64,000 nt of DNA from Microtetraspora glauca (GTDB lineage: Bacteria; Actinomycetota; Actinomycetes; Streptosporangiales; Streptosporangiaceae): NCBI GenBank assembly GCA_001570385.1, contig BBYL01000009.1:124001-188000 (forward strand). Reading direction: 5' to 3'. The notes beneath the pieces are model-generated. The model did not search any database and was not told the DNA's origin. It saw nothing but the letters and a program-made list of their open reading frames with translations. Positions 4,347-32,082 of this stretch are shown here, piece after piece (position 1 is the stretch's first letter; each line of letters starts with the position of its first letter). The translations under genes and the position numbers were made by a program.

Positions 4347-4724
4347 TCATGACGAGGCCGATGCTGCCGCGCCGGACGTCAGCGCCGCCTGTACGATGCG
4401 GATCGCCTCGCCCGCGTCGATGCCGACGCTGGCGATCACGGCCGCGTAGTCGGCGGCGGCCCGGCGGGCCCGCTCCCGGCCCTCCTCCCCGGCGGCCGAC
4501 ACGAACGAGCCCGCCCGCCCGCGCGTTTCGATCAGCCCCGCTTCCTCCAGCTCCCGGTAGGCCCGGCCGACCGTGTTGACGGCCAGGCCGAGGTCGGCCG
4601 CGAGGTGGCGGATGGTCGGCAGGCGGGCGCCCACGGCAAGCGTGCGGTCCTGGATCTGCCGGGCGAGCTGGGCCCGCAGCTGCTCGAACGGCGGCACCGG
4701 CGAGGCCGCATCGATGACGATCAT
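4347..4724 (-). CDS. GntR-family regulator, YtrA type
   Basis: 125 residues. A GntR winged helix (VPPFEQLRAQLARQIQDRTL, then GARLPTIRHLAADLGLAVNT and the wing ETRGRAGSFV) is followed by a short helical tail of about 45 residues, as in YtrA-type regulators. The start is ATG at 4724 and overlaps the stop of the upstream membrane gene in an ATGA junction. YtrA-type regulators usually control an adjacent transport or membrane gene, often in response to antibiotics or cell-envelope stress. Here the partner is the six-helix protein encoded just upstream in the same operon. The inverted repeat at 5565-5586 is a candidate operator. Confidence 0.88.
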   Translation of the reverse strand: MIVIDAASPVPPFEQLRAQLARQIQDRTLAVGARLPTIRHLAADLGLAVNTVGRAYRELEEAGLIETRGRAGSFVSAAGEEGRERARRAAADYAAVIASVGIDAGEAIRIVQAALTSGAAASASS

Positions 4725-7862: not shown

Positions 7863-7900
7863 GGCCCTCCGCTCCCGAACGTGTCCCCAGCCGCCAGGTA
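7863..7900 (+). repeat. Left terminal inverted repeat of the 3.3-kb transposon
   Basis: 38 bases starting GGCCCTCCGCTCCCGAAC. It is the reverse complement of 11105-11142 except for one base. It is preceded by TCAAT. Confidence 0.95.
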
Positions 7901-8014
7901 GGTCTCGTGACGCATGACCCCTTATTGAGTGGGGCCGAGGCTGTGGCGGAGAAGTTCGAGGTCGGCGAAGGGGAATCGGCATAACCGGTCGGACTCTTCG
8001 CTCCTGCCTGCCAC

Positions 8015-8452
8015 TCAGGCGAGGCAGAACTCGTTGCCCTCAACGTCCTGCATAACCAGGCAGGACTCGTTCACCTCATCGGCAGGCAGGAGCCGCACGC
8101 GTACCGCGCCGAGCGGGATCAGCCGCGCGCATTCGGCCTCAAGGGCCGCCAGGCGCTCCTCACCCACCAGCCCGGTGCCGACCCGCACGTCAAGGTGCAG
8201 CCGATTCTTTACGACCTTGCCTTCGGGAACGCGCTGGAAGTACAGCCGCGGACCCGCGCCCGAGGGATCGCTGCATGCGAACCATGAATCCCGCTGCTCA
8301 AGCGGCAGCGTGCGATTGAAGTCGTCCCAACTGGCAAACCCCTCCGGTGGCGGCGGCGCGACGTACCCCAGCACCTCGCACCAGAAACGAGCAACGCGCT
8401 CAGGCGATGCGCAGTCGAAGGTGACTTGAATCTGCCTAACTGATGCTCCCAT
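8015..8452 (-). CDS. VOC-superfamily (glyoxalase-like) protein, transposon cargo
   Basis: 145 residues. The sequence opens VRQIQVTFDCASPERVARFW and ends LPADEVNESCLVMQDVEGNE-FCLA. These are the two ends of a single-module vicinal-oxygen-chelate fold, with paired beta-alpha-beta halves. Proteins of this kind act as metal-dependent lyases or dioxygenases, or as binding proteins for drugs such as bleomycin. No substrate can be read from sequence. I place the start at ATG 8452, since upstream codons look non-coding. It lies inside the transposon, between the left repeat and the recombinase gene, where passenger genes sit. Confidence 0.8.
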   Translation of the reverse strand: MGASVRQIQVTFDCASPERVARFWCEVLGYVAPPPPEGFASWDDFNRTLPLEQRDSWFACSDPSGAGPRLYFQRVPEGKVVKNRLHLDVRVGTGLVGEERLAALEAECARLIPLGAVRVRLLPADEVNESCLVMQDVEGNEFCLA

Positions 8453-8702
8453 GGACCAATTATCCCATTGGTTGCCATACGGCCGATCAGAGCAACTGTC
8501 CTTGATCCACGGTTGCGACGTCATCCTCAGGGTGTCGGGATTAGAAGGTTTAACGACACCCTCTGATTGGGCCCCGCAAGCCCTCTCGAAAACCGGACAT
8601 CGAGTGACGAACCGTGACGTCAGGTGGCCGGTTCCGCGCACGAATTAACGACAGGATTTTCCGACACGAGAATCGGGCTTCACCCGTCCCGAGGAGAGCC
8701 CG

Positions 8703-9362
8703 GTGCAGATCGTCTACTCCCGCGTCTCCACCGCGACCCAGTCCCTGCTGCGGCAGCGCCACATCCTCACCGAGGCCGGCCTTCTTGTGCGCACCGAAGG
8801 CGTCGCCGAGGGATTCCGGCCTGCCGACGGCGTCCTCCTCTTCGAGGACCCCGCCACCACCTCCAAGATCCCCGCCCTCGACCGGCTCGCGTTCGGCAAG
8901 ATCGCCGCCAAGGCGCACCCCGGCGACACCCTGACGGTCTCGGAGCTGTTCCGGCTCTGCCGCGACCTGCTCGACATCCACGCCGTCCGCAACTGGTGCC
9001 AAGCCCGCGGCGTCGCCCTGCGCGTCCTGTCCGGACCGCTGTCGAACTTCCACGATCTGGCCGCAGGCGACGCCACCACCGCAGTCATCATCAACGTGAT
9101 CACCGCAGTCGGCCAGTTCCAGCGTGACATCCAGAACGAGCTCACCGTCGAGGGGATCGCCGCCGCCGAGGCTGAAGGCCGCTACCGCGGCCGGCCGCCC
9201 GCGCTGGACGGTGACCGGCGCGAGGACGTGCGGGCGGCTTTCCACGAGGGCACCTCGATCGCGGCCCTGGCACGGGCTCATGGGGTAAGCCGGGCGGCCG
9301 TGCGAACCGCCCTGGCCGACCTGCTACCCGGCCAGGGCGTCCTTCCTCGGACATCGGCGTGA
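8703..9362 (+). CDS. Serine recombinase / resolvase of the 3.3-kb transposon
   Basis: 219 residues. The catalytic serine is in the opening MQIVYSRVSTATQSL. Arginines lie in the SELFRLCRD segment, and a long E helix (ITAVGQFQRDIQNELTVEGI) leads to the C-terminal helix-turn-helix (SIAALARAHGVSRAAVRTAL). This is the TnpR type that resolves Tn3 cointegrates at a res site. The SELFRLCRD segment departs from the usual S-R-L-x-R-S. Its TGA at 9360-9362 directly abuts the transposase stop, so the two genes converge. A res site is expected in the 250 bases upstream, but I could not delimit it. Confidence 0.82.
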   Translation: MQIVYSRVSTATQSLLRQRHILTEAGLLVRTEGVAEGFRPADGVLLFEDPATTSKIPALDRLAFGKIAAKAHPGDTLTVSELFRLCRDLLDIHAVRNWCQARGVALRVLSGPLSNFHDLAAGDATTAVIINVITAVGQFQRDIQNELTVEGIAAAEAEGRYRGRPPALDGDRREDVRAAFHEGTSIAALARAHGVSRAAVRTALADLLPGQGVLPRTSA

Positions 9363-11055
9363 TCAGGCGACCAGGTCGAGGTCAAGACGGCGGCCCATGT
9401 CGATGTCGATCGTGCCGTAGAGGTTGGCGTTGGACCAGAACAGTGGCGAGAGTCCTCGCTTGTCGGCGTCGGTCATCTTCTTCTGCCAGGCGGGGTCCTT
9501 GAGGACGGACTGAACCAGCAAGGTGTTGATGAAGACCAGCGCCGACTGGAGCAGGTGAAGGCTGAGCATGGAGACCTCCTGATGTTCCTTGTCACTGCCG
9601 GGGATGGTGCCGGCGCTGCCGTAGAACAGGTCGGTGTTGGCGGAGTTCCAGTTCTCCACGACCTGCAGGCCCTCGTGGATCTCGCGGCGCAGTTCCTGCG
9701 AGGCGACGTACCCGGCGACGAACACGCTCTTGACCGCCTTGCCGAGCTCCTCGATGGCCTTGTAGGTGGGGTGCTTGGGGCCGCTGCGGGTGAAGCGTCG
9801 CAGCACCTGCTCGGCCTCGGCCGTGCCCAGGCGCAGGGCGGTGGCGTATTTCACCATCTGGTCATACTGCTGAGCGATGATCTCCCAGTCGATCGGCTTG
9901 TCGGCCACCATGCCGGTCAGGCATGACGGGACCTGGTCATCGGCGTCGGCCTTCACCAGCTTCTGCCGGGCGATGTTCTTCTGGTGTTCGGGATGTCGGC
10001 GTAGCGCTGCAGCAGGTCCACGGCGTCCATCACCGGCCGGTAGGCGGTGTTGTTGCACTTGAACTCGATCGCGGCCAGCAGCTTGGGCAGCATCCGCCGG
10101 CAGTAGGAGGTGTAGGAGCTGGTCAGCACCGTCCGTACGCGGGCCTTGTAGGCCCTGGCGTCCGCCTTCGCCTCGGCCACCAGCGCCTGCAGCGTCGCCT
10201 CCCCGCCCGGCACCGCCGGGAACACGACCTGCCGGACCGTGCCCTCCGGAGCCCGCAGCGACGCCTCGGCGATCGAGAACAGCTTCTGGGTCTTGCGGTG
10301 CACCTTCTTGGCCTCGGCCTCGATCGCCTTCTCGACCTTCCGCTCCGCCCGAGTATTGATCTTCGACACCAGGCCGTCGGACTTCAGCTCCAGCAGGAAC
10401 CCGTCCTCACCCGTGGCCAGCTCCCACAGCGACCGCGCCGAGTCTGCCGACAGACCGTTCAGCACATGCAGGCAGAACTCCCGCTCGAACCGCGCCCTGC
10501 CCGCGCCCACGATCCGCTCCACCCTGCCCGCGCCCACGATCCGCTCCACCCTGCCCGGTGGCTCGATCTTCAACGTCCGGCAGCGGGACAGCAGCGCCGC
10601 ACGCAATCCCTCCTCCGTGAACACCATCGGGCAGATCTTGTCCGCCAGCCACTCGGCCAGCACGTCCTCGTCCGCCCGGGTCGACTCCCGGAACCCCAGC
10701 GCTTCACGCATTTGGGCCCGGTGCCGCTCGATCGACCGGCCCGACCAGTCGTACTTCGCCAGCAACGCCGGCTCGACCTTCACCTGGCCGGCCACGTAGT
10801 CCACCGCGGCCTTGGGCAGCTCACCCACGTGCCGCGGGAACCGGCCCTCCTGCTCGAAGAATTTCAGCATCAGGCCGAATCCCAGACGGGTCGCCCCGTC
10901 TTGTTCCCCACCAGCTCCCAGTCGCCGTCCAGCAGCGTCCACGCCGCGATCAGCTCTTCCCGCTCCCACTCTCGACGCACCCGAACCCCGCCCCTCCACC
11001 CGACCGTCTCCGACACGAACACGATCAAGCAGAAGCCCCACCCAACCAGCCACAT
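9363..11055 (-). pseudogene. tnpA: Tn3-family transposase, disrupted
   Basis: Three pieces can be joined. The N-terminus REWEREELIAAWTLLDGDWE (from about 10990) shifts frame near 10890 into ATRLGFGLMLKFFEQEGRF. That frame runs to QRYADIP near 9990. A third frame, from NIARQKLVKADADD, carries the C-terminus ([20 protein letters not shown], then NSANTDLFYGSAG) to the stop at 9363. About 400 codons with the catalytic Asp/Asp region are missing at the last joint. Some 75 codons are missing after ELKSD in the N-terminal half. A 27-bp tandem duplication repeats RVERIVGAG (about 10497-10553). The gene cannot make active transposase. Confidence 0.88.
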
Positions 11056-11104
11056 TCACCGCTCAGAAACGATCACGAACCGTAATCGTGATCTCTCATT
11101 CCGC

Positions 11105-11142
11105 TACCTGGCGGCTGGGGACATGTTCGGGAGCGGAGGGCC
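11105..11142 (-). repeat. Right terminal inverted repeat of the 3.3-kb transposon
   Basis: 38 bases ending GAGCGGAGGGCC on the plus strand and followed by the TCAAT duplication. One mismatch to the left repeat. Confidence 0.95.
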
Positions 11143-13263: not shown

Positions 13264-13794
13264 GTGGAACCACGGTCCGGGTGTCCGATCAACGCCGCCG
13301 TCGAGGTGCTCGGAGATCGCTGGTCGTTGCTCGTGCTTCGCGACGTCATTTTCGGCGACCGCCGCTACTTTCGGGCGCTGCTCACCGGGTCGATCGAGGG
13401 CATCGCTTCGAACATCCTCGCCGACCGCCTCGTACGGCTCGTCGAGGCAGGGATCCTCACCCGCGGCACCGCCGCGCGGGGGCAGCGCGCTCGCTACAGC
13501 CTCACTGAAACCGGCATCCAGACTCTTCCGATCATCTTTGCTCTCGGCAACTGGGGCCTCGACTGGCGCCCAGGCAGCGACGAGCTCCGGAGCCGGCAGC
13601 AGCTCATGCGCGATGAGGGTCCGGCGTTCATCGAGGAGCTCATGGACGAGCTTCGCGTCCGCCACCTCGACGCCCCGCCGAAGCCGCACGACGGTCCAGG
13701 CCCGTTCGAGCGCCTCGACGCCGCCTACGCCGCGGCCGGCGATGCTGCATCGGAACGGCCAGTGACGATAGGAGGCGTCCGCCGGGCTCCTTAA
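13264..13794 (+). CDS. HxlR-family winged-helix regulator
   Basis: 176 residues. The N-terminus PRSGCPINAAVEVLGDRWS has the single cysteine typical of HxlR-type redox or aldehyde sensors. It is followed by LLVLRDVIFGDRRYFRALL and the recognition helix GIASNILADRLVRLVEAG. A C-terminal extension of about 60 residues carries no clear domain. The start is GTG at 13264 with AAGGAGG 5 bases upstream. Divergent from the DHFR-like/MBL pair, it probably represses both promoters through the palindrome at 13201-13235. Confidence 0.9.
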   Translation: MEPRSGCPINAAVEVLGDRWSLLVLRDVIFGDRRYFRALLTGSIEGIASNILADRLVRLVEAGILTRGTAARGQRARYSLTETGIQTLPIIFALGNWGLDWRPGSDELRSRQQLMRDEGPAFIEELMDELRVRHLDAPPKPHDGPGPFERLDAAYAAAGDAASERPVTIGGVRRAP

Positions 13795-21262: not shown

Positions 21263-22609
21263 TTGGTGCTCACGACCGCTGACTTCCATTCCGGGCTTCG
21301 GCCCGTCCCAGTGGCCCGGGATACTCTCCACTACCGCCGCTCGGCGACCGAGGCACTGCGCGAGCTGGCCGAGGCCCGTGCGGTGGCGGAGCTGCTGGAG
21401 CTGTCGCACGCGATGTGGTGCGGCCCGGTGTGCGCAAGCACCAGCGGGTGCGGCTACCTGCACTACCCCAGACGCGAACCCCGGCCGGGAATTCCCCGGT
21501 CGAGGCGGTCCCCGTACAACAAGGACACCGCCGACCTGTTCTTCCTGATGGGTGGCGGGGGCTATGCGGCCGGTACGGCGAAGACCCACGAGAGGGACCT
21601 GTGGCCCGTCCTGCGGGAGGCCGCCGCCCAGGCGGACGCTGGCGAAGGCGCCCGTATCGACTACACGGACTGGGGGCGCAAGAACGACACGACGGCCGCC
21701 GACATCGCGATGTACACCTGCCGGGATACCCTCCAGTGGGCGGCCAACTGGTATGGCGAGCGGTATGCGGATCAGCCAGCATTCCTCCACTATGTCGGAG
21801 TGTCAACGGTCTGTGACGACCTGTGCATCCCGCCGCTGGACCTGGTCCAGGGCCGGTTCAGAATGTACGGCCGCACGGTCGGCGACATCATCTCCGCGCT
21901 GGACGACCAGGGGTGGGGGCACGATGCCGTGCACGCTCTGCTCGCACTCGTCCGCCAGTACCTGTTCCAGTACGCGGAGAAGCTCGACTTCGTGTCCGGC
22001 CGTGAGCGCTCCAGCATGCACTCGCGCCTCAACGACTCGGCCGGAGTCTGGGACGCGGTCATCTACCACACGTACTCTGGCAACCCCTACGGCTGCTTGC
22101 TCGGGGTCGCCCGGCTATGGGACGCCGGTCCCTGCTCGAACACCTGGCTCACGGACGCGGCCATCTGCGATGGCATCTCCATGGACCTGTGCAAGTCCGC
22201 CATGGGCATCTACCAGCTGGACCTCTACCAGCCCACTGCCGACGAGCACCGCGCACAACAGCGGCAGACGGCCTACCAGTCGGTCTATCTCGACCTCATC
22301 GACGACCTCGTGGCCAGCGGCGCCCCCGACGCCCTGGTGCACTACGCGCACGCGGGCTTCCTGTTCGTGCAGACCCAGGAGCGCTACCACGAGCGTCGGA
22401 TCGGCCACCGCATCCCCCTGCGGCCGGCCCTCACCGCGCACCTGAGCAACATCTTCGGCGACGAGCCCGTGGACCCCTTCGTCGAACAGCGCTTCCAAGC
22501 ACAGCGAACCTCCCGCACCCCACTCGTGGCCACTGCGTTTCCGACCGGCCCGACCGGGCTGGGCACCTCCGCAGCCCGGCTCACCGCTCACGAACCACGG
22601 TTACATTGA
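21263..22609 (+). CDS. Uncharacterised protein, 448 residues
   Basis: I do not recognise this family. It is probably cytoplasmic: no signal peptide or membrane helix is visible. It is rich in aromatic and acidic residues and has scattered cysteines. Distinct stretches are CGPVCASTSGCGYLHYPRRE, ADLFFLMGGGGYAAGTAKTH, VGVSTVCDDLCIPPLDLVQG, WDAVIYHTYSGNPYGCLLGV and WLTDAAICDGISMDLCKSAM. A region near residues 290-345 that pairs ND- or DD-like clusters with aromatic helices recalls all-helical terpenoid-type enzymes, but no full metal motif is present. The start may be TTG 21263 or GTG 21266; neither has a clear ribosome site. An in-frame TGA lies four codons upstream, after a coding-looking stretch (21190-21250), so the gene may once have been longer. 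Confidence 0.6.
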   Translation: MVLTTADFHSGLRPVPVARDTLHYRRSATEALRELAEARAVAELLELSHAMWCGPVCASTSGCGYLHYPRREPRPGIPRSRRSPYNKDTADLFFLMGGGGYAAGTAKTHERDLWPVLREAAAQADAGEGARIDYTDWGRKNDTTAADIAMYTCRDTLQWAANWYGERYADQPAFLHYVGVSTVCDDLCIPPLDLVQGRFRMYGRTVGDIISALDDQGWGHDAVHALLALVRQYLFQYAEKLDFVSGRERSSMHSRLNDSAGVWDAVIYHTYSGNPYGCLLGVARLWDAGPCSNTWLTDAAICDGISMDLCKSAMGIYQLDLYQPTADEHRAQQRQTAYQSVYLDLIDDLVASGAPDALVHYAHAGFLFVQTQERYHERRIGHRIPLRPALTAHLSNIFGDEPVDPFVEQRFQAQRTSRTPLVATAFPTGPTGLGTSAARLTAHEPRLH

Positions 22610-22699
22610 CCCCCGAGGCCGAGTACCGGCTGCGACCGCCGCGAGGCGACTGACCAGAGCGGTGGCGCGCACGCTGACCAGCCTTCTGGTCGGTGAAGC

Positions 22700-23132
22700 T
22701 CAGTCTTGCCCGTCGTCGTTCTCGTCATCGGTGTGCGGGTCACGCAGCTGCCGCAGGCCCGGCTTGATGACCGGGGTCAGGCCTACGTTGCACGCCTCGG
22801 ACAGCAGCACAACGCACAGGCTGGTGGCGAAGCCCTCCATGCCGGAGCCGGCGCCGGAGATGTGCGTGAACGCCTCCGGCATGCCCGTCAGCTCGGCGAC
22901 CTCCAGCAGCAGCTCGGGAAAGTCGACCTTCGTAAGCATGCCGTTGACCAGTGACCAGTTGCCTGAACGGCGGCATGAACTTGGGTTCCTCCGCTTTGCC
23001 GAGCTTGGCCAGCTTCAGCTTCCCGCCTACCACCTCCAGCGCCGCGTTCCCCGGCAGCCCGGCGGCGACCTGGACGTACGCGGCGTGCAGCGCGGAGGCG
23101 AGTTCAGCGAGGTGTCTGGCTGGCTCAGGCAT
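22700..23132 (-). pseudogene. Tn3-family transposase central fragment
   Basis: Two overlapping frames join near 22940: HLAELASALHAAYVQVAAGL and NAALEVVGGKLKLAKLGKAE, then KVDFPELLLEVAELTGMPEA and FATSLCVVLLSEACNVGLTP. This is the region just ahead of the catalytic core of Tn3 transposases ('E-A-C-N-x-G'). It is a stretch missing from the transposase of the 3.3-kb element, but it lies elsewhere with no flanking repeats. Confidence 0.65.
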
Positions 23133-23251
23133 TGGTCGGATCCTGGACGGCCTTCGCCGCTACCGGTGGCGAGGAGTACTGGGGAACACGTACTCGAGAG
23201 CCGCCAACCTGGCTCCACGATGTGGCCGGCTCGGGCTAACGACCCAAATGG

Positions 23252-23827
<576 letters not shown>

Positions 23828-24214
23828 GGGCGTGGTCTCATTCCGGCCGGCGGATCCGGTCTGATGAGGAACGAAAACCGCAAGCGGTGCGTCGCCTCGG
23901 TTATGGCCAGCAGCATACTGGGTGCCGCCCCGGTTATGCCGGACGCGTATTTGGCCCGGACGCGGTACGTGCGGGTCTGCCGGTATGGCTTCGAGTAAGA
24001 GAACCACGCGGCTCACCATTTCCACCAAAAGGTCGGATTCGGGCGAGCATCAGCCTGCCGTACTCAACGTCGCCGCATAGCCCCCGAAGAACTTACGGGC
24101 ACGACCATTAAACGCGCCCGAATCCGGCCGCAAGAATGAGCGTCTACCGCACCCAGGAGGAATACGAGTGCCGGCACATGGGCGAATGCGTCCGCCTCCC
24201 GTGGCGGCGACGGC
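23828..24214. other. Gap between the DHFR-like pseudogene and the large transposon
   Basis: No gene is supported. An AGGAGG at about 24161 precedes a GTG at 24168 that opens a frame interrupted by the transposon. On the other strand the frame of the gene starting at 32082 would, without the transposon, end at a TAG at 24144-24146. ACGGC at 24210-24214 is the left target duplication. Confidence 0.4.
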
Positions 24215-24252
24215 GGCCCCCCACTCGGGTCCGCGTCACCAGCCGCAAAGTA
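24215..24252 (+). repeat. Left terminal inverted repeat of the 7.8-kb transposon
   Basis: 38 bases opening GGCCCCCCACTCGGGTCC. It is the reverse complement of 31973-32010 and is preceded by ACGGC. Confidence 0.95.
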
Positions 24253-24357
24253 GCTCTGCGTGACGGCCGTTGAACGATGTGCCAGTGCCGTGATCGCGTC
24301 AGCGGCGGACCGATAGCGTTCGTCCGTAGCTGGGAGGGGTCACGTAGGGGGCGGCAC

Positions 24358-24470
24358 ATGGCTGAGGTGTGGCAGGCGCTGGCCGCGGTCGTGGGCGGTG
24401 TGCTGCTGCTCTGGCTGGTACTTCTCGGCTTCCTGGCGGTGACAGCGTTCGGTCAGGTCCTCGCGGACGG
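24358..24470 (+). pseudogene. Small membrane-protein N-terminal relic
   Basis: ATG 24358, after GGAGGGG and GGGGGC, opens AEVWQALAAVVGGVLLLWLV, LLGFLAVTAFGQVLADG. This is one or two membrane helices of a small protein. Coding character ends at about 24470, where the 3' end of the tetR-type gene overlaps. It looks like a gene cut by the recombination that brought in the cargo. Confidence 0.45.
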
Positions 24471-25043
24471 TTCGCCTGGCACGAGCGTGGCCAGGAAGGC
24501 CCGGAACAGCTCGCTGATCGCCACGCCTCGGGGGTTGAGCAGCCATTGGAGCTGCAGACCGTCGTTGACCGCGATGATCAAGGGTGCGGCCTGCTCCGGG
24601 GTCAGCCCCCCCGGCAACCGGTCGCCGTGTTCCGCACGCAGGTTGTCGGCCAGTTCGTGGCGGGAGCGGTCATAGCGGGCGGTGAAGAACTCGTGGGCGG
24701 GGTGATCCTCGGCGACGCTTTCCGCCGACAGCACAGTGTAGGAGTGCACCAGTCCACGCCAGTCGAGGTTGAAATCGACCAGCCGGGCCATCGCCTCGGT
24801 CGTCAGCCCCAAGTCGGCGACGATCTCCAGGTTGCGCAGATCCCGGCGTTCCAGCACGCAGACGAGGAGGTCTTCCTTGGTCTGGAAGTGATGGAGCAAG
24901 GTCTGCTTGGAGATGCCCACCGCCTCGGCGATGGCGGCGAGCGAACCGGCCCGGTAGCCGCGTTCGGCGAAGACCCGCTCGGCGGCGGCCATGATGTCCT
25001 CACGCCGCTCGTCGGCTCGCTTCCGTCGCTTCTGCGGCACCAC
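24453..25043 (-). CDS. TetR-family regulator, transposon cargo
   Basis: 196 residues. The N-terminal helix-turn-helix is typical: REDIMAAAERVFAERGYRAG, SLAAIAEAVGISKQTLLHHF, QTKEDLLVCVLE. The rest is the helical ligand and dimer domain. The start is GTG 25043 with GGAGGTGTC directly upstream. It is divergent from the GH20-like gene across a 108-base AT-rich gap (CGAAAATATAACGCAATC), the natural place for its operator. By family it is a repressor relieved by a small molecule, perhaps a sugar related to the glycosidase substrate (inference). Confidence 0.9.
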   Translation of the reverse strand: MVPQKRRKRADERREDIMAAAERVFAERGYRAGSLAAIAEAVGISKQTLLHHFQTKEDLLVCVLERRDLRNLEIVADLGLTTEAMARLVDFNLDWRGLVHSYTVLSAESVAEDHPAHEFFTARYDRSRHELADNLRAEHGDRLPGGLTPEQAAPLIIAVNDGLQLQWLLNPRGVAISELFRAFLATLVPGEPSART

Positions 25044-25151
25044 GACACCTCCAAAGTAACGAAAATATAACGCAATCTACCGCTTGGTTGATACATTGGA
25101 GATGCTGTCACAGACACCCGATTCCATGCCAGATCGCATCGAGGGAGTCTG

Positions 25152-26912
25152 ATGATCGAGCTGTTCCCCCGCCCCCGGCTCCTGACCGTCGCAGGCGCCG
25201 GCGCCGCCCTCTCCGCTCCGATCGCCGAGATCCCCGACGCGGGCCTTCCGGATCAGGGCTTCACCATCGACACCAGCGGCCCGGAGATCGTCCTGCGGTA
25301 CGCCGACGACGCCGCACTCCGCTACGGCCGGGAGACCCTTAAGCAACTGCGCGCCCAAGGCGACGGCGCCTGGCCCGCGGTCCGCATCCAGGACTGGCCC
25401 GACTTCCCCGTGCGGGGCTTCCTGCTCGACATCAGCCGCGGCCGGGTCCCCACCATGGAGAGCTTCAGCCACCTTCTGGGCGTCCTACGCCTGGCCCGCT
25501 TCAACCAGCTCCAGCTCTACACCGAGCACACCTTCGCCTACACCGGCCACCAGGACGTCTGGCGTGACGCCTCGCCCATGACCGCCGCCGAGATCCGCAC
25601 CCTCGACGCGTTGTGCGGCAACGCCGGCATCGAGCTGGTGCCCAACCAGTGCACCCACGCCCACCTGGATGCCTGGCTCTCCCACGACGCCTACCGCTAC
25701 CTCGCCGAATGCCCGGACGGCTGCTCCATCGCCGGCACTTCCTTACCTGCTGGGACCCTCAAGGCCGATGAGGAGAGCGCCGCCTTCGTTCACAGCCTGC
25801 TGGCCGAGTTGCTCCCCAACTTCACCAGCCGTCAGATCCACATCAACTGCGACGAGCCCTTCGAACTCGGCAGAGGTGCCGGCGCCGCCCAAGTCGCCGA
25901 ACTCGGCACCGGCGAGGTCTACGTCCAACACTTGCGACGCCTGATGGAACCCCTGCTCGCCCAGGGCTACTGCGTGCAGTTCTGGGCGGATTTCATCAGC
26001 CATCACCCTGAACTCGCCCGCAGCCTCCCGCCTGGCTGCACAGCCGTTGCCTGGACCTATGAGTCCCCCCGGCCCGAGGGCGAGCGCATCCAGATCCCGC
26101 CGGACTTCCAGCGGCTCGTCGACGAGCTCGACCTCAACATCGCCTTCGACGGCTTCGCCGAGGCCCTGCGAGACCTACCGGACAGCGGCCTGCCGTTCCT
26201 CGTCGCGCCAGGCACCAGCACCTGGAACTCACTCGTCGGCCGGATCGACAACGCGATCGGCAACATCACCGACGCTGTTCGCACCGGCCTGGCGAGCGGT
26301 GCTGAGGGCCTCCTACTGTCGGAATGGGGCGACAACGGCCACCTGCAGGCGTTCTGCACCTCCTATCCACCCATCGTGTACGGCGGAGCAGCCGGTTGGT
26401 GCCTCGCCGCCAACGCGGATCTCGATCTGCCTGCCGTACTCGATCGGTATGTCTTTCACGACCACGCCCGAGTACTCGGCGGCGTGCTCGACACCGTCGG
26501 GCGAGTATGGGACCGCACCGGCCAGCGCTCGTTCAACAGCAGCCCCCTTCAGGCAGCGCTGATCCCTGAGCAGCGGCATCTGATCACACACGACCCCGAC
26601 ACCGGCCTCGTCGAGGCGGTCATCGCGACGTTGGAGCGGGCGCTGGCAGACCTGACCCGAGCCCGGCCGGACTCGCCCGACGGCTCGCTGGCGGTCCGCG
26701 AACTCGCCGCGGCCATCGGCCTGGCCCGGCACGGAGCTTGGCGGCTGGGCCGTGCCGCCGGTTTGGTGACCCCCGGCGACGCCGAGATGCGCGCGGACCT
26801 CGCCACGTGGATCGCCAAATATCGGGAATGCTGGCTCGCGCGCAACCGGCCAGGCGGGATGGAACGCGGATTCGGGCCACTGACCTCGACCCTGAACTCC
26901 TACGCGCAGTGA
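25152..26912 (+). CDS. GH20-like glycoside hydrolase (beta-N-acetylhexosaminidase type), transposon cargo
   Basis: 586 residues. The N-terminal about 90 residues are the small alpha/beta domain (YADDAALRYGRETLKQLRAQ). The TIM barrel then begins with FPVRGFLLDISRGRVPTMES. The catalytic Asp-Glu pair lies in QIHINCDEPFELGRG (near residue 238). Later barrel strands include FWADFISHHPELA and LLLSEWGDNGHLQAFC. These features fit GH20 enzymes or their close relatives, which remove terminal N-acetylhexosamines using substrate-assisted catalysis. There is no signal peptide, so it is cytoplasmic and would act on imported oligosaccharides. GAGGGAG precedes ATG 25152. Confidence 0.82.
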   Translation: MIELFPRPRLLTVAGAGAALSAPIAEIPDAGLPDQGFTIDTSGPEIVLRYADDAALRYGRETLKQLRAQGDGAWPAVRIQDWPDFPVRGFLLDISRGRVPTMESFSHLLGVLRLARFNQLQLYTEHTFAYTGHQDVWRDASPMTAAEIRTLDALCGNAGIELVPNQCTHAHLDAWLSHDAYRYLAECPDGCSIAGTSLPAGTLKADEESAAFVHSLLAELLPNFTSRQIHINCDEPFELGRGAGAAQVAELGTGEVYVQHLRRLMEPLLAQGYCVQFWADFISHHPELARSLPPGCTAVAWTYESPRPEGERIQIPPDFQRLVDELDLNIAFDGFAEALRDLPDSGLPFLVAPGTSTWNSLVGRIDNAIGNITDAVRTGLASGAEGLLLSEWGDNGHLQAFCTSYPPIVYGGAAGWCLAANADLDLPAVLDRYVFHDHARVLGGVLDTVGRVWDRTGQRSFNSSPLQAALIPEQRHLITHDPDTGLVEAVIATLERALADLTRARPDSPDGSLAVRELAAAIGLARHGAWRLGRAAGLVTPGDAEMRADLATWIAKYRECWLARNRPGGMERGFGPLTSTLNSYAQ

Positions 26913-27079
26913 CAACCGGGCCGGGCCCCGACGGCATCGACACTTCCTGAATTTCTGATCTTGAGGTTAGCCCGGTCAGGTCAACATTCGACTGATGACT
27001 CTTGGGAGGTGGTCAGGGTGCGAGAGTGCGTTACCGCTTCGGCTGCGCTGAGGCGTTGTGCAGGGTCAGGATTGATCAC

Positions 27080-28246
27080 GTGACCACACAGCCGGGGCGT
27101 CCGCGTCTGTTACGTGAGCTGAACGATCGTGCTGCGCTGCAGCTACTGGGTTCGTCGGGAGCGCTGACCCGGGCGCAGGTGAGCGAGATGACCGGGCTGT
27201 CGAAGGTGACGGCCAGCCACGTCTTGTCTCGGTTGGAGGAGCGCGGCCTGGTCATCGAGGCCGGCGCGCAAGGGGGCGGACGCGGGCCTAACGCGGTCCT
27301 GTACGAGCTCAACCCATCGTGCGGCCATGTGATCGCGATCGAGGTCTACCAGGACACGACGACCGCCGTTCTCGCCGACATCACGGGCAGGCCGCTGGCG
27401 CAGACGACGGTCGCGACCGATGTCAGCGCGGATCCGGCCGCAGCGACGCACACGATCGTGCAACACCTGGCTCGGACCGCGAAGATCGATGTGGCGCAGG
27501 TGCAGGCGTGCGTCATCGCCCTGCCCGGCGTCATCGATCCGGCGACAAGCCGCATTCACTTCTGCTACGACATGCCCGCCTGGCACGGGGATGTGATCGA
27601 AGTCCTCCGCCGCACGTTGCGGTTGCCCGTCACGATCGACAACGACGTCAATCTCGCCGCGATAGCCGAACGCATGCTCGGATCCGCGAGCACGGCGCGC
27701 AGCTTCGTGCTCATGTGGATCGGACGCGGCCCTGGATCGGCCGTCATGGTAGGCGATCAGCTATTACGCGGGGCAGCCGGTGCGGCAGGCGAACTCGGCT
27801 GGATGCCCGTCCCCGGCGCGGCCGTCAGCGACGGCGGCTTCGATCGCAGCCGTCATGAGGTAGGGGCAGCCTTCCAGTCCCTGGTCGGCTGGCGGGCGGT
27901 GCAAGAACTCGCCGACAGCCACCACGTCGCGGCCGAGAATGCCGCGCAAAGCGTGGCGGCCGCCGCAGGCAGCGCGCGGGGAGCGGCCTTCCTTGACGAA
28001 TTGGCTCGGCGGGTCGCTTTGGGGGTCGCTTCCATCTGCGCCGTTCTCGATCCTGAACTCGTCGTGCTGGGCAGCGATGTCGGCTCCGCTGGAGGCGACG
28101 AACTCGCCGGCCGTGTTCAAAGGGCCGTCGCGGGCATGTGCCTGGCCCGGCCACGGGTGCAGGCAAGCACGATCGTGGACGGACCCGTAGTGCGCGGTGC
28201 TCGGCTGGTCGCAGTCCAACAGGCACGTGAACGGGTCTTCTTTTAG
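27080..28246 (+). CDS. ROK-family regulator (NagC/Mlc-like), transposon cargo
   Basis: 388 residues from GTG 27080. I chose this over the upstream GTG because the sequence before it lacks coding character. Residues about 15-70 form a winged helix: NDRAALQLLGSSGALTRAQV, SEMTGLSKVTASHVLSRLEE. A sugar-kinase-like ROK domain follows (VIAIEVYQDTTTAVLADITG, LPVTIDNDVNLAAIAERML, RGAAGAAGELGWM). The CxCGxxGC zinc motif of classic ROK proteins is absent, as in some regulators. The likely role is sensing an amino sugar and controlling the glycosidase or a matching transporter outside the window. Confidence 0.85.
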   Translation: MTTQPGRPRLLRELNDRAALQLLGSSGALTRAQVSEMTGLSKVTASHVLSRLEERGLVIEAGAQGGGRGPNAVLYELNPSCGHVIAIEVYQDTTTAVLADITGRPLAQTTVATDVSADPAAATHTIVQHLARTAKIDVAQVQACVIALPGVIDPATSRIHFCYDMPAWHGDVIEVLRRTLRLPVTIDNDVNLAAIAERMLGSASTARSFVLMWIGRGPGSAVMVGDQLLRGAAGAAGELGWMPVPGAAVSDGGFDRSRHEVGAAFQSLVGWRAVQELADSHHVAAENAAQSVAAAAGSARGAAFLDELARRVALGVASICAVLDPELVVLGSDVGSAGGDELAGRVQRAVAGMCLARPRVQASTIVDGPVVRGARLVAVQQARERVFF

Positions 28247-28312
28247 AGGTCAGTTCACGCTGGGCTGCCCTCCCGACAGCAGTCCGCATAGACGAACCCG
28301 CTCTGGCACCGA

Positions 28313-28945
28313 ATGGATCTGGTCATGGCCTTCGCAGAAATGGTTAGCCGGATCTTCTCCGAGAAGATCTCTACCCGGATCAAGGTCCGGCCGGAGTTCG
28401 AGACCGCCCTGAAGCTGTGCACCGACATCAAGGGCGCCGCCCCGGACCAGGCGGTGATCCTGGTCGTGCACGAGATGAAGAGGCTGGCGCGCAACGCCGC
28501 CGAGCTAATGACGCTGGCCGCGACCCTGCAGGAAGCGGGCATCCAGCTGGAGCTGCTGACCGGGCCGCTGGTCGGCGTCTATGACCCCCAAAGGGATGGG
28601 CTCGATACTGTTCGCCATCTTGGCCGTCGGCGCCCAGCTGGATCGCAACTACATCCGCGAGAAGACCCTGGAGGGCCACCAGGCGGCTGCGGCCAAGGGC
28701 AATAGCTCCCGCGCGCTCCACACAGCGGCCGGCCGAGGGTCTTCGATGAGGACATGCTCACCTTCGCCCTGGCGCTACGCGACAAGGGCGTGCCGGTGCC
28801 CGACATCGCCAAGAAGCTGACCATCAAGACAGGGATCAACACGGGCAAGAACCCCTCCCTGGCCTCGGTCTATCGCGCCCTGGCCGAAGCCGATGCCCTG
28901 ATCACCCGCCCCAGCCCGATGCCCACCGGAGGAGTGGGTGCCTGA
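28313..28945 (+). pseudogene. Serine recombinase (resolvase) of the 7.8-kb transposon, frameshifted
   Basis: The N-terminal catalytic serine region is missing; the frame enters at RIFSEKISTRIKVRPEFETA. It continues through EMKRLARNAAELMTLAATLQ and shifts near 28590 into KGMGSILFAILAVGAQLDRN, YIREKTLEGHQAAAAKGN. It shifts back near 28745 for the C-terminal helix-turn-helix (FALALRDKGVPVPDIAKKL). Two compensating frameshifts and a lost start make it inactive. Its position and direction next to the transposase mirror the 3.3-kb element. Confidence 0.8.
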
Positions 28946-29008
28946 GAAGGCGGTGAAGACAGCTTCGGGGTAACGCAGTCATAGGGGCCGCCGTGGTTGC
29001 GCAGCGGT

Positions 29009-31955
29009 TCAGGCGGGCTGGCCGGCCGCCAGCTCTGGCTTCGGGCCCGGCCCGAGGTCAGGGCCGAGGTCTGGGCTCTCCAGGTCTGGGCCGAGGTCGA
29101 GCCGTTTGCTCATGTCGAGCTCGAACTTGCCGTACAGGTTCAGATGGGTCCAGAACAGGGCTGATAGGCCGCGCCGGTCGGCGTCGGTGAGCTTCTTGCT
29201 CCACTTCGGTTCGGCCAAGACGATCTGCACCATGCGGGTGTTCAAGTAGACGATCGCGGCCTGGACCAGGTGGAGCGCCAGCGCGGACACTTCGACGCTC
29301 TCGCGGTCGTCGCCGGTGAGGTCGCCGGCCTTGCCGTAGAAGATGTCCTTGTTGGCGGAGTTCCAGTTCTCCACCACGTTCAGGCCCTCGTGGATCTCGC
29401 GGCGCAGCTCTTCGGCGGCGAGATAGTCGCAGATGAACACGGTGCGGATCACCCGTCCGAGTTCCTCGATCGCCCGGTAGGTGGAGTGCTTGGGGCCGCC
29501 GCGGGTGAAGCGGCGCAGCATCTGGTGGGCCTCGGCGGTGTGCAGCCGCAGCGCGGTCGCGTACTTGATCATCTGGTCGTACTGGTTGGCGATCAGCTCC
29601 CAGTCGATCGTCTTGCCCGACAGGACGCTCTCCAGTTGCGGCCAGGCCTCCGCTTCGGTCAGGCCCGGCCGGTACAACCGAGCCGAGCCGACGTTCTTGA
29701 GCCGGGGCAGCAGCTTGAAGTCCAAAAGGTGCGAGAAGGCGAAACCCACGATCGAGGCGCCATGGGTATCGGTGTACTGCCGGTCGATCTCCGCGCTGGT
29801 CAGATGGCGCAGCAGGCCCTCGATCATCGAGGCGACCTCGGAGTCGGTGGTGGAGCGCACCTGGGAGTAGATGCACACGTTCTTACGCTCGACGTGCCAA
29901 TACACCATGATCCCGGCGCCGCCGTAGCGCTGGTGCCACTCGGTCATGAAGTTGGCCGACCAGGAGCCGAACTTGCGCGAGTCCGACGCGCACGCCGTAC
30001 CGGGCCCCCACAACGTGGAGTCGCGCACCTCCAACGTCTTGTTGACCACGGCACGGATCGCGGCGCGCAGGTTGTCGCGGTTGACGAACAACCGCCGGAC
30101 ACGACGCAACGCCACCTCGGTGTCGGCCTCCATCCCGGCCATCACCGCGGTGCCGTCGGCGACCCGCTTGATGCCCATGTTGGTGCCCAGCCCGAACGTG
30201 CACAGCAGCAGCCGGCGGCGCAAAACCTCAGGGTCGGTGACGGTGCGCGTGCCACCGAGGTGAACTCGGAGGTGAACTTCGTGGCGTGGTCGACGTTCTT
30301 GATCAGGTCCAGCAGGTCGATCACGCCCCAGCGGCGGGCGATCTCGGCCTTGAGCGCCTCCAGGTTCTCCGGCTCGACCTGCTTGCCCAGGGACGGGACG
30401 TTGATCCACGGTTCCCCTTGGCGCTTGGTGATGCCCACCCCGCCGGTGGTGCTCTTCTTCAACCCCTTGTTCAGCCGATCCAGCGCCGCGACGTGCCGCC
30501 TCTGCAGGTCGGCGATGAAGTCGGCCGGATCACGGGGCTTGGACAGCGCCTCGTAGTGCACGTCCCGGTTGTCCTCGAAATCGGGCGGCAGGTCATGGTC
30601 GGGGTTGCGCCAGATGTTGGCGCCCTCCACCCAGATCTCCCGGCGCCGGATCGCCTTGCGCAGCGCCACCAGCACGCACAGCTCATACGGGATGCGCTCG
30701 ATGAGGCCGGTGTCGGGGTCGAGGATCGCATCACGCCAGTCCTCGGGCACCACGTGCTCCACCGGCACCGCCTCGGCGGCGGCGTAGAACTCGGCATCGG
30801 AATCGGCGTAGCGCTCCAGCAACTCCAGCGCGTCCATCACCGGCTTGAAGACCTCGTTGCTGGAGCGGAACCGCACCGCCCGCAGCAGCTTGGGCAGGCC
30901 GCGCCGGTAGTGGTGGGAGTAGGAGCCGCGCAACTTGGTCCGCACCCGGGTGTTGAACACCTTCTCGTTCGCCTTGGCCTCGGCGATGATGTCCTCCAGG
31001 GTGCCCTGACCCACCACCGGATACAGCGCCTTGCGGACGATCTCCTCCGGCAGCTCCAGCGCCGCGGTGGCCAGCTTCACCAAGATGTTGTTCTTGCCAT
31101 GGACCCGCCGGAACTCGGCGTTGAGCTCGCCCTCGACCTTCTTCTCCGCCCGCACGCTGATCTTGTGCACGAGGTGGATCAGCAGCTCGACCAGGCGTCG
31201 GTGATCTCAGCCTGCCGCACATGGCACAACGCGGCCAGCAACGTGACGCGCACCGGCACCTCGGCCGCCTTGAAGTCGGAGGGGTACATCTTCATCGCCC
31301 GCGCCCGCCACCCGGCCACCACCTTCTCGGAGACCTCCGCAAACAAGGTGGCCGGCAGGCCGATCGCCTCGACCCGGCCCAGCTTCACGATCTCGGCCAG
31401 CAGCGTGTCCAGCTGGAAGGAACCGGGGTCCTCATTCAGCTCTTGCAAGAACGCACGCCGCCCTCCCTCGTGGGCAGCGGCGGCCTGGCTCTGTCCCTCC
31501 GGCTCAGCAGCGGCCTGCGCTGAGGCCGAGTCATCAGAGGTTGCAGCGGGCGGCGGAGGAGGCGCGGTGATGAGCTCCTCCAGCTTGCCCACCGCATCGA
31601 ACGACAACCGGTTCAGGGTCCTGTGGGTGAAGTTCCGCTCGAACAGCGTCTCGGCCGCACCCAGGACGCGTTCGATCCGGGTCGTCTTCGGCGGCTCGAT
31701 CCGGTCCTCTCGACAGCGCGTCAGCAGCGCCCCGCGCAGCCGATCCCGCGACATCTCCACCGGGCAGATCTTGGTGGCCGGCCAGTCGGCGAGCTTGTCC
31801 TCATCGCCCACCGTCGGCTCCCGGAAGTCGTGAAACTTCCTGATCTGCGCCCGGTGGTACTCGATCGTGCGCCCCGACCAGGCGTAGGAGGAGAACAAGG
31901 CCACCTCCACCTTGACCTGCTCGGCTAGTAGACAAAACCTGACCGCATCGTCCAA
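29009..31955 (-). pseudogene. tnpA: Tn3-family transposase of the 7.8-kb transposon, disrupted
   Basis: About 970 codons remain in three frames. Frame one (from 31955) lacks roughly the first 70-90 residues and starts AEQVKVEVALFSSYAWSGRT. A one-base deletion near 31205 shifts it into ISVRAEKKVEGELNAEFRRV. A second shift near 30255 leads to [20 protein letters not shown]. The last frame holds the catalytic [20 protein letters not shown] and the C-terminus [20 protein letters not shown], to 29009. The order of domains is complete apart from the N-terminus, so decay is younger than in the 3.3-kb element. Confidence 0.9.
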
Positions 31956-31972
31956 TGATCGTCATACAGAGT

Positions 31973-32010
31973 TACTTTGCGGCTGGTGACGCGGACCCGA
32001 GTGGGGGGCC
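31973..32010 (-). repeat. Right terminal inverted repeat of the 7.8-kb transposon
   Basis: 38 bases ending CCCGAGTGGGGGGCC on the plus strand, followed by ACGGC (32011-32015). Confidence 0.95.
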
Positions 32011-32082
32011 ACGGCGTCGGGGATCCGGCACCAGCGCGGGGACGAACCCCAGCTCCGCGGCCGCCTCGGTCGTCGTGGTCAT
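32011..32082 (-). pseudogene. 5' end of a gene cut by the 7.8-kb transposon
   Basis: ATG 32082 has GAGGAGGTGTC immediately upstream, an excellent ribosome binding site. The frame TTTTEAAAELGFVPALVPDP runs into the target duplication. Rejoined across the transposon, the frame would end at 24144, giving only about 45 residues. So the gene was either a small peptide gene or was already shifted. It is divergent from the MFS exporter and shares its operator-rich promoter, so it may have encoded a regulator or a co-regulated protein. I do not recognise it. Confidence 0.5.

Follow-up and report, generated by a model that had tools for sequence, protein, structure and literature searches.

Is the DNA between 24210 and 32015 of the Microtetraspora glauca window (the whole analysed stretch of 64,000 nucleotides from contig BBYL01000009.1) a complete Tn3-family transposon that brought in a sugar-use cassette, as the original prediction held? 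We addressed this question through the ends of the element, its transposition genes, its cargo and its insertion site.

The ends are exact and belong to a transposon family

We first considered the borders. On the left, a copy of ACGGC (24210-24214) precedes a 38-bp terminal inverted repeat distal to tnpA, GGCCCCCCACTCGGGTCCGCGTCACCAGCCGCAAAGTA (24215-24252, plus strand), found by direct reading and by repeat search. On the right, the tnpA-proximal repeat (31973-32010, minus strand) is the exact reverse complement of GGCCCCCCACTCGGGTCCGCGTCACCAGCCGCAAAGTA and precedes the second ACGGC (32011-32015). The two repeats of this 7.8-kb element of a soil actinobacterium are thus perfect and each is bordered by ACGGC, so that direct reading confirmed the exact ends that had been proposed. 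The chance of an exact 38-bp inverted pair within 8 kb is about 10^-13, and in the repeat search the likeness between the ends covered 65 nt at 89%, reaching 24279 on the left side.

The exact repeat occurs at these two positions only in the M. glauca genome, together with one copy with 3 mismatches on contig 21; sibling copies of the whole element were sought in the same genome and none was found. With 0-3 mismatches, the repeat was present in 19 of 343 genomes of the same taxonomic family, and the reversed repeat pattern, used as a control, had no match in these 343 genomes. This result indicates that the ends come from a real transposon lineage. The Tn3-family assignment was likewise borne out, by a Tn3-type transposase, a (broken) resolvase gene, 38-bp repeats and a 5-bp duplication. 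Replicative transposition of a TnpA/TnpR-type transposon would have made the ACGGC duplication.

Comparison with an intact element shows damage in both transposition genes

As a reference for calling lesions we used a 9.2-kb Tn3-family element located through the shared repeats in another genus of the same taxonomic family (L107; G142 contig 1, 304465-313704). It replaced Streptomyces plasmid relatives, our first references, which were dropped because their repeats differ (>12 mismatches). The repeats of L107 (locus positions 4466-4503 and 13667-13704) have 2 and 4 mismatches to those of the M. glauca element, and it too is bordered by a 5-bp duplication, GATTA. The DNA of the two elements is 90% identical in tnpA and 89% in tnpR. 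In L107, however, both tnpA (1028 aa) and tnpR (313 aa, a serine resolvase) are intact.

In M. glauca, domain and alignment evidence identifies tnpA as a remnant in three frames (29009-31928, minus strand). The NCBIfam profile transpos_Tn3 matches all three minus-strand pieces in order, and the C-terminal piece has the Tn3 DDE domain (PF01526, E 2e-115). Aligned with Streptomyces homologues, the pieces span residues 63-1003 of about 1004 and are gapless from one piece to the next. Relative to L107, 332 nt (94 + 238 nt in the alignment) are missing between the repeat and the gene, including the start and the first 62 codons, with the site of loss at 31928-31931; in addition, 1-nt deletions lie at about 31196 and 30254. 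The tnpR remnant (28346-28944, plus strand), likewise recognised by domain and alignment, is of the serine type (PF00239) and is 95% identical over 82 residues to the L107 resolvase. It has lost about 112 N-terminal codons, the N-terminal third of the gene, and has frame-shifting insertions of +1 nt and +17 nt.

Neither gene therefore has the intact frame expected of an autonomous element, and a protein search of the M. glauca genome for an intact tnpA relative found none. "Complete" describes the ends of this element and not its genes, since tnpA is split into three frames without its N terminus and tnpR is truncated. The three 1-nt lesions, two in tnpA and one in tnpR, could be sequencing errors, which did affect the first published sequence of the Streptomyces transposon Tn4556 (PMC6403206). 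The loss of 332 nt and the shortening of tnpR are not so easily explained in this way, being too large for base-calling errors. Between the tnpA pieces and L107, dN/dS is 0.13-0.33, so most of the divergence arose while the gene worked, and the decay is recent relative to the split from L107. That the repeats and the target duplication are still perfect after both transposition genes broke shows that perfect ends do not make an active element.

The cargo consists of two units found apart elsewhere

We next examined the cargo. All three predicted genes are present: a gene for an intact TetR-family regulator (24453-25043, minus strand; 196 aa, PF00440), one for an exo-beta-N-acetylhexosaminidase-like enzyme of family GH20 (25152-26912, plus strand; 586 aa), recognised by profiles, homologue alignment and a structure model, and one for a ROK-family regulator with an N-terminal winged HTH (27080-28246, plus strand). 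The mechanical ORF of the last runs from 27002, and we set its start at the GTG at 27080 since its orthologues begin there. All three have open frames and show purifying selection (dN/dS about 0.26-0.29 for GH20, 0.18 for TetR and 0.24 for ROK).

TetR and GH20 are divergently oriented, and the pair is 82-83% identical in DNA to pairs in genome G172 (L064) and in Nonomuraea spiralis (L004), the closest named organism to match the cargo; the TetR alone shares 87-88% identity with its counterparts next to GH20 there. Both pairs lack transposon repeats and ROK, and their flanks are unrelated. Between these two loci, a stretch of exactly 2494 bp aligns at 92.5% identity, and the resemblance stops at both its ends. 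The original prediction had stated that a relative with these genes but no repeats would count against it. Such a relative exists for TetR-GH20, which shows that the pair occurs outside the element and leaves the transposon itself standing. ROK orthologues, at 66-79%, occur in six genomes (L116-L121), where none adjoins TetR-GH20 and the neighbours mostly differ. The borders of both units are sharp and fall at gene ends, and the DNA beyond them is unrelated from genome to genome. Because TetR-GH20 and ROK lie apart in all other genomes in which they were found, the cargo joins two units of separate history. Together with the lack of any transporter or sugar kinase gene within the element, this separation speaks against a sugar-use cassette, and the three genes do not form a conserved module.

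Carriers of the TetR-GH20 pair are rare. The GH20 gene was found in 1 of 11 genomes of the genus of G172 and, in a class-wide draw of 395 genomes (E 1e-60), in two, namely M. glauca itself and one whose homologue is distant (44% identity). Such a scattered distribution is in keeping with horizontal transfer. In congeners of G172, a search for the empty site of the unit found each flank, never joined; in G197, the left flank of the G172 unit is 92% identical and ends about 24 bp before the unit. In M. glauca, a 10-bp direct repeat, CGGTCAGGTC, lies around TetR-GH20 (24450-24459 and 26973-26982). Insertion sequences were rejected as a source of the cargo, as this repeat was the only one found and no convincing bracketing repeats were seen, and so was a plasmid origin, for which there was no close match.

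The divergent promoter region common to TetR and GH20 (25044-25151) was delimited in a three-genome alignment, where a block reading ATAACGAAAATATAACG-AATCTACCGCT-GGT-GAT is largely conserved. This block is a candidate operator/promoter and a plausible TetR operator, through which the divergent TetR may control GH20; a search of the intergenic region for a strong palindrome found none. ROK would act as a separate sugar-responsive regulator.

Metabolic cargo is ordinary among the actinobacterial Tn3 elements compared

The prediction had implied that cargo other than resistance genes is unusual for a Tn3 element. Such cargo is indeed carried here, but it is ordinary among the actinobacterial Tn3 elements compared. 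L107 encodes DoxX, TetR, FAD monooxygenase, methyltransferase and TauE proteins. Tn4556 of Streptomyces fradiae carries methyltransferase and prenyl transferase genes, and on a Streptomyces plasmid a related transposase gene (L075) adjoins sulfur genes, which from their position may be its cargo. Tn4556, compared by description, is also an actinobacterial Tn3-family element with 38-bp repeats and 5-bp duplications, measuring 6.6 kb, with a TnpA of about 1000 aa and a resolvase gene near the far repeat (PMC6403206). It differs in being functional and in its resolvase, given as PF00589 (tyrosine type) as opposed to PF00239 here.

A Tn3 transposon with metabolic cargo is thus already known as a kind, of which this element is a tidy further example. 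With L107, it shows an actinobacterial Tn3 lineage gaining and swapping metabolic genes, a near-identical backbone bearing oxidative and methylation genes in the genus of L107 and an amino-sugar hydrolase in M. glauca. The position of the cargo differs as well. In L107 the order is IR-tnpA-cargo-tnpR-IR, whereas in M. glauca tnpA adjoins the tnpR remnant and the cargo fills the stretch from this remnant to the far repeat, beside which the match to L107 ends after 51 bp.

The target was probably rearranged before the insertion

On the right of the element lies an MFS gene that is conserved with a divergent MarR gene in three other genera (G003, G004, G025); about 20 first codons of MarR are left in M. 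glauca. The left flank holds the first codons of a zinc-ribbon gene fragment, unrelated to the right flank. Each of the two flanking genes is already cut short no more than about 20 nt from where the element inserted, and a search for the exact empty site found no genome in which the left and right flanks are joined. The target had probably been rearranged before the insertion, with the perfect 5-bp repeat marking the later event; or the ACGGC match is a coincidence, at about 0.2% for this 5-mer in this base composition.

The origin of the element and its cargo

Taken together, these data probably reflect a Tn3-family transposon that was inserted here by replicative transposition, is now non-autonomous, and carries a cargo of two independent pieces. 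The position of the cargo, beyond tnpR on the side of the far repeat, and the cut that its border makes in tnpR suggest that it entered at or near the tnpR/res region, where TetR-GH20 and ROK would have arrived as independently derived pieces; cargo exchange near res has been reported for toxin-antitoxin modules in Tn3 elements (PMC7157771). The cargo was either carried in by the transposon or entered after it had landed. Were the latter so, a dead resident Tn3 element could have served as a landing pad for TetR-GH20 and ROK, entering by illegitimate recombination, and the cargo would never have moved with it. The sharp borders at gene ends with unrelated flanks in every genome, the cut in tnpR and the 10-bp repeat around TetR-GH20 favour this view. 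We nevertheless regard it as unlikely, since L107 shows this backbone holding cargo between its repeats, a 10-bp repeat close to two borders counts for little, and the order of events is not readable from a single copy. Under the preferred reading of an inserted, now non-autonomous transposon, tnpA and tnpR broke later or were already broken, and the cargo stayed open. Had they been broken at the time of insertion, a related intact transposase could recently have moved the element in trans, as in TIMEs, and its perfect repeats and duplication alongside broken genes are consistent with such a move. TIMEs and other non-autonomous Tn3 derivatives, which are known to transpose, likewise have 38-bp Tn3 repeats around DNA without a working transposase; TIMEs lack any transposition genes, whereas the M. 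glauca element retains tnpA and tnpR remnants (PMC4133298). The same repeat family also bounds 240-bp gene-free elements in two genera, 89% identical. Recent movement in trans is rather doubtful, as no copy seen of these 240-bp elements has a clear target duplication, no intact tnpA relative is now found in the genome, and the lesions may postdate the insertion. Any further movement would require a transposase in trans, and the element is best described as a real but decayed Tn3-family transposon that is probably stranded.

Two further proposals concern the cargo alone. TetR, GH20 and ROK might be jointly controlled and selected as a functional sugar-use unit, given that the genes are adjacent, that GH20 and ROK run in the same direction, 167 bp apart when ROK is counted from its chosen start, and that all three are open and constrained. 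In Streptococcus pneumoniae, moreover, GH20C adjoins a ROK sugar kinase, a different kind of ROK protein (PMC5215778). The orthologous TetR-GH20 pairs without ROK, the orthologous ROK genes without GH20 and the lack of a transporter or kinase in the element make joint selection improbable. It is less probable again that TetR-GH20 forms a small gene islet able to move by a mechanism of its own, a reading suggested by the presence of the same 2.5-kb unit in three genera, once within a Tn3 element, with sharp borders, unrelated flanks and rare carriers.

The GH20 enzyme belongs to a little-sampled branch

Finally, we considered what the enzyme may do. Its sequence matches the GH20b profile (PF02838) above the cut-off and the GH20 profile (PF00728) just below it, and neither an N-terminal extension nor a signal peptide was seen. 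The Asp234-Glu235 pair of GH20 is invariant among 8 homologues, and the presence of a catalytic domain with this pair fits a GH20 beta-N-acetylhexosaminidase. In the predicted structure (mean pLDDT 85.6), the best full-length fold matches are GH20C of S. pneumoniae and GcnA of S. gordonii (TM-score about 0.7), which a sequence search also matched weakly. Their Asp-Glu pair aligns with that of the M. glauca protein, although they come from another phylum and are only 14-17% identical to it.

Genes beside the homologues suggest a substrate. Genes for the GlcNAc-related NamZ and NlpC/P60 (L006) and GH94 (L008), and for a solute-binding protein with GH9 (L007), neighbour distant homologues, and a chitin-binding-module protein adjoins the TetR-GH20 pair in G172; these neighbours point to beta-linked N-acetylhexosamine oligosaccharides. 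The predicted cytoplasmic enzyme may accordingly act on imported oligosaccharides of chitin or wall origin and strip off their terminal beta-linked N-acetylhexosamine, presumably by substrate-assisted catalysis. Its GH20 branch, little sampled so far, is common to Anaerolineae, spirochaetes and haloarchaea.

Borders of the TetR–GH20 unit and flanking sequence

We found the divergent TetR–GH20 unit of the main Tn3-family transposon bracketed by a 10-bp direct repeat, CGGTCAGGTC, at window positions 24450–24459 and 26973–26982, with GGTCAGG found again where the homology of the ROK regulator begins (27064). The direct repeat may be a trace of recombination, or it may be due to chance. A TetR–GH20 copy in decay was identified in one compared genome (G070, L067:7724–8390), where all that remains of the pair is the end of GH20 and a TetR fragment.

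The left flank of the transposon (22600–24214) is a mosaic: pieces of a RibD/dihydrofolate-reductase-like pseudogene, each matched separately in many genomes, are followed by a truncated zinc-ribbon gene with a match in genome G009. The window also carries a second, distinct Tn3-family element of 3280 bp (7863–11142), which ends in 38-bp repeats with one mismatch, is flanked by a perfect TCAAT duplication, and contains a resolvase gene (8703–9362) together with a tnpA whose central portion is missing.

Relatives of the transposon ends and of GH20

The Tn3 repeats of the main transposon also form the ends of a gene-free 240-bp element (L113:5818–6056 and L114:3401–3640), whose two copies, from two genera and in reverse orientation, are 89% identical and both lack a clear target duplication. 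This is a TIME-like miniature element of the main transposon's lineage. Solitary copies of the repeat in the transposon's own genome, on contig 21 (L065:7563–7600, 3 mismatches) and contig 39 (L069:5910–5947, 6 mismatches), are apparently relics.

The homologue of GH20 in an Anaerolineae MAG (L006:4470–12514) has a NamZ exo-beta-N-acetylmuramidase and an NlpC/P60 protein encoded in its neighbourhood. This is a hint that peptidoglycan recycling is among the roles of this branch of GH20.
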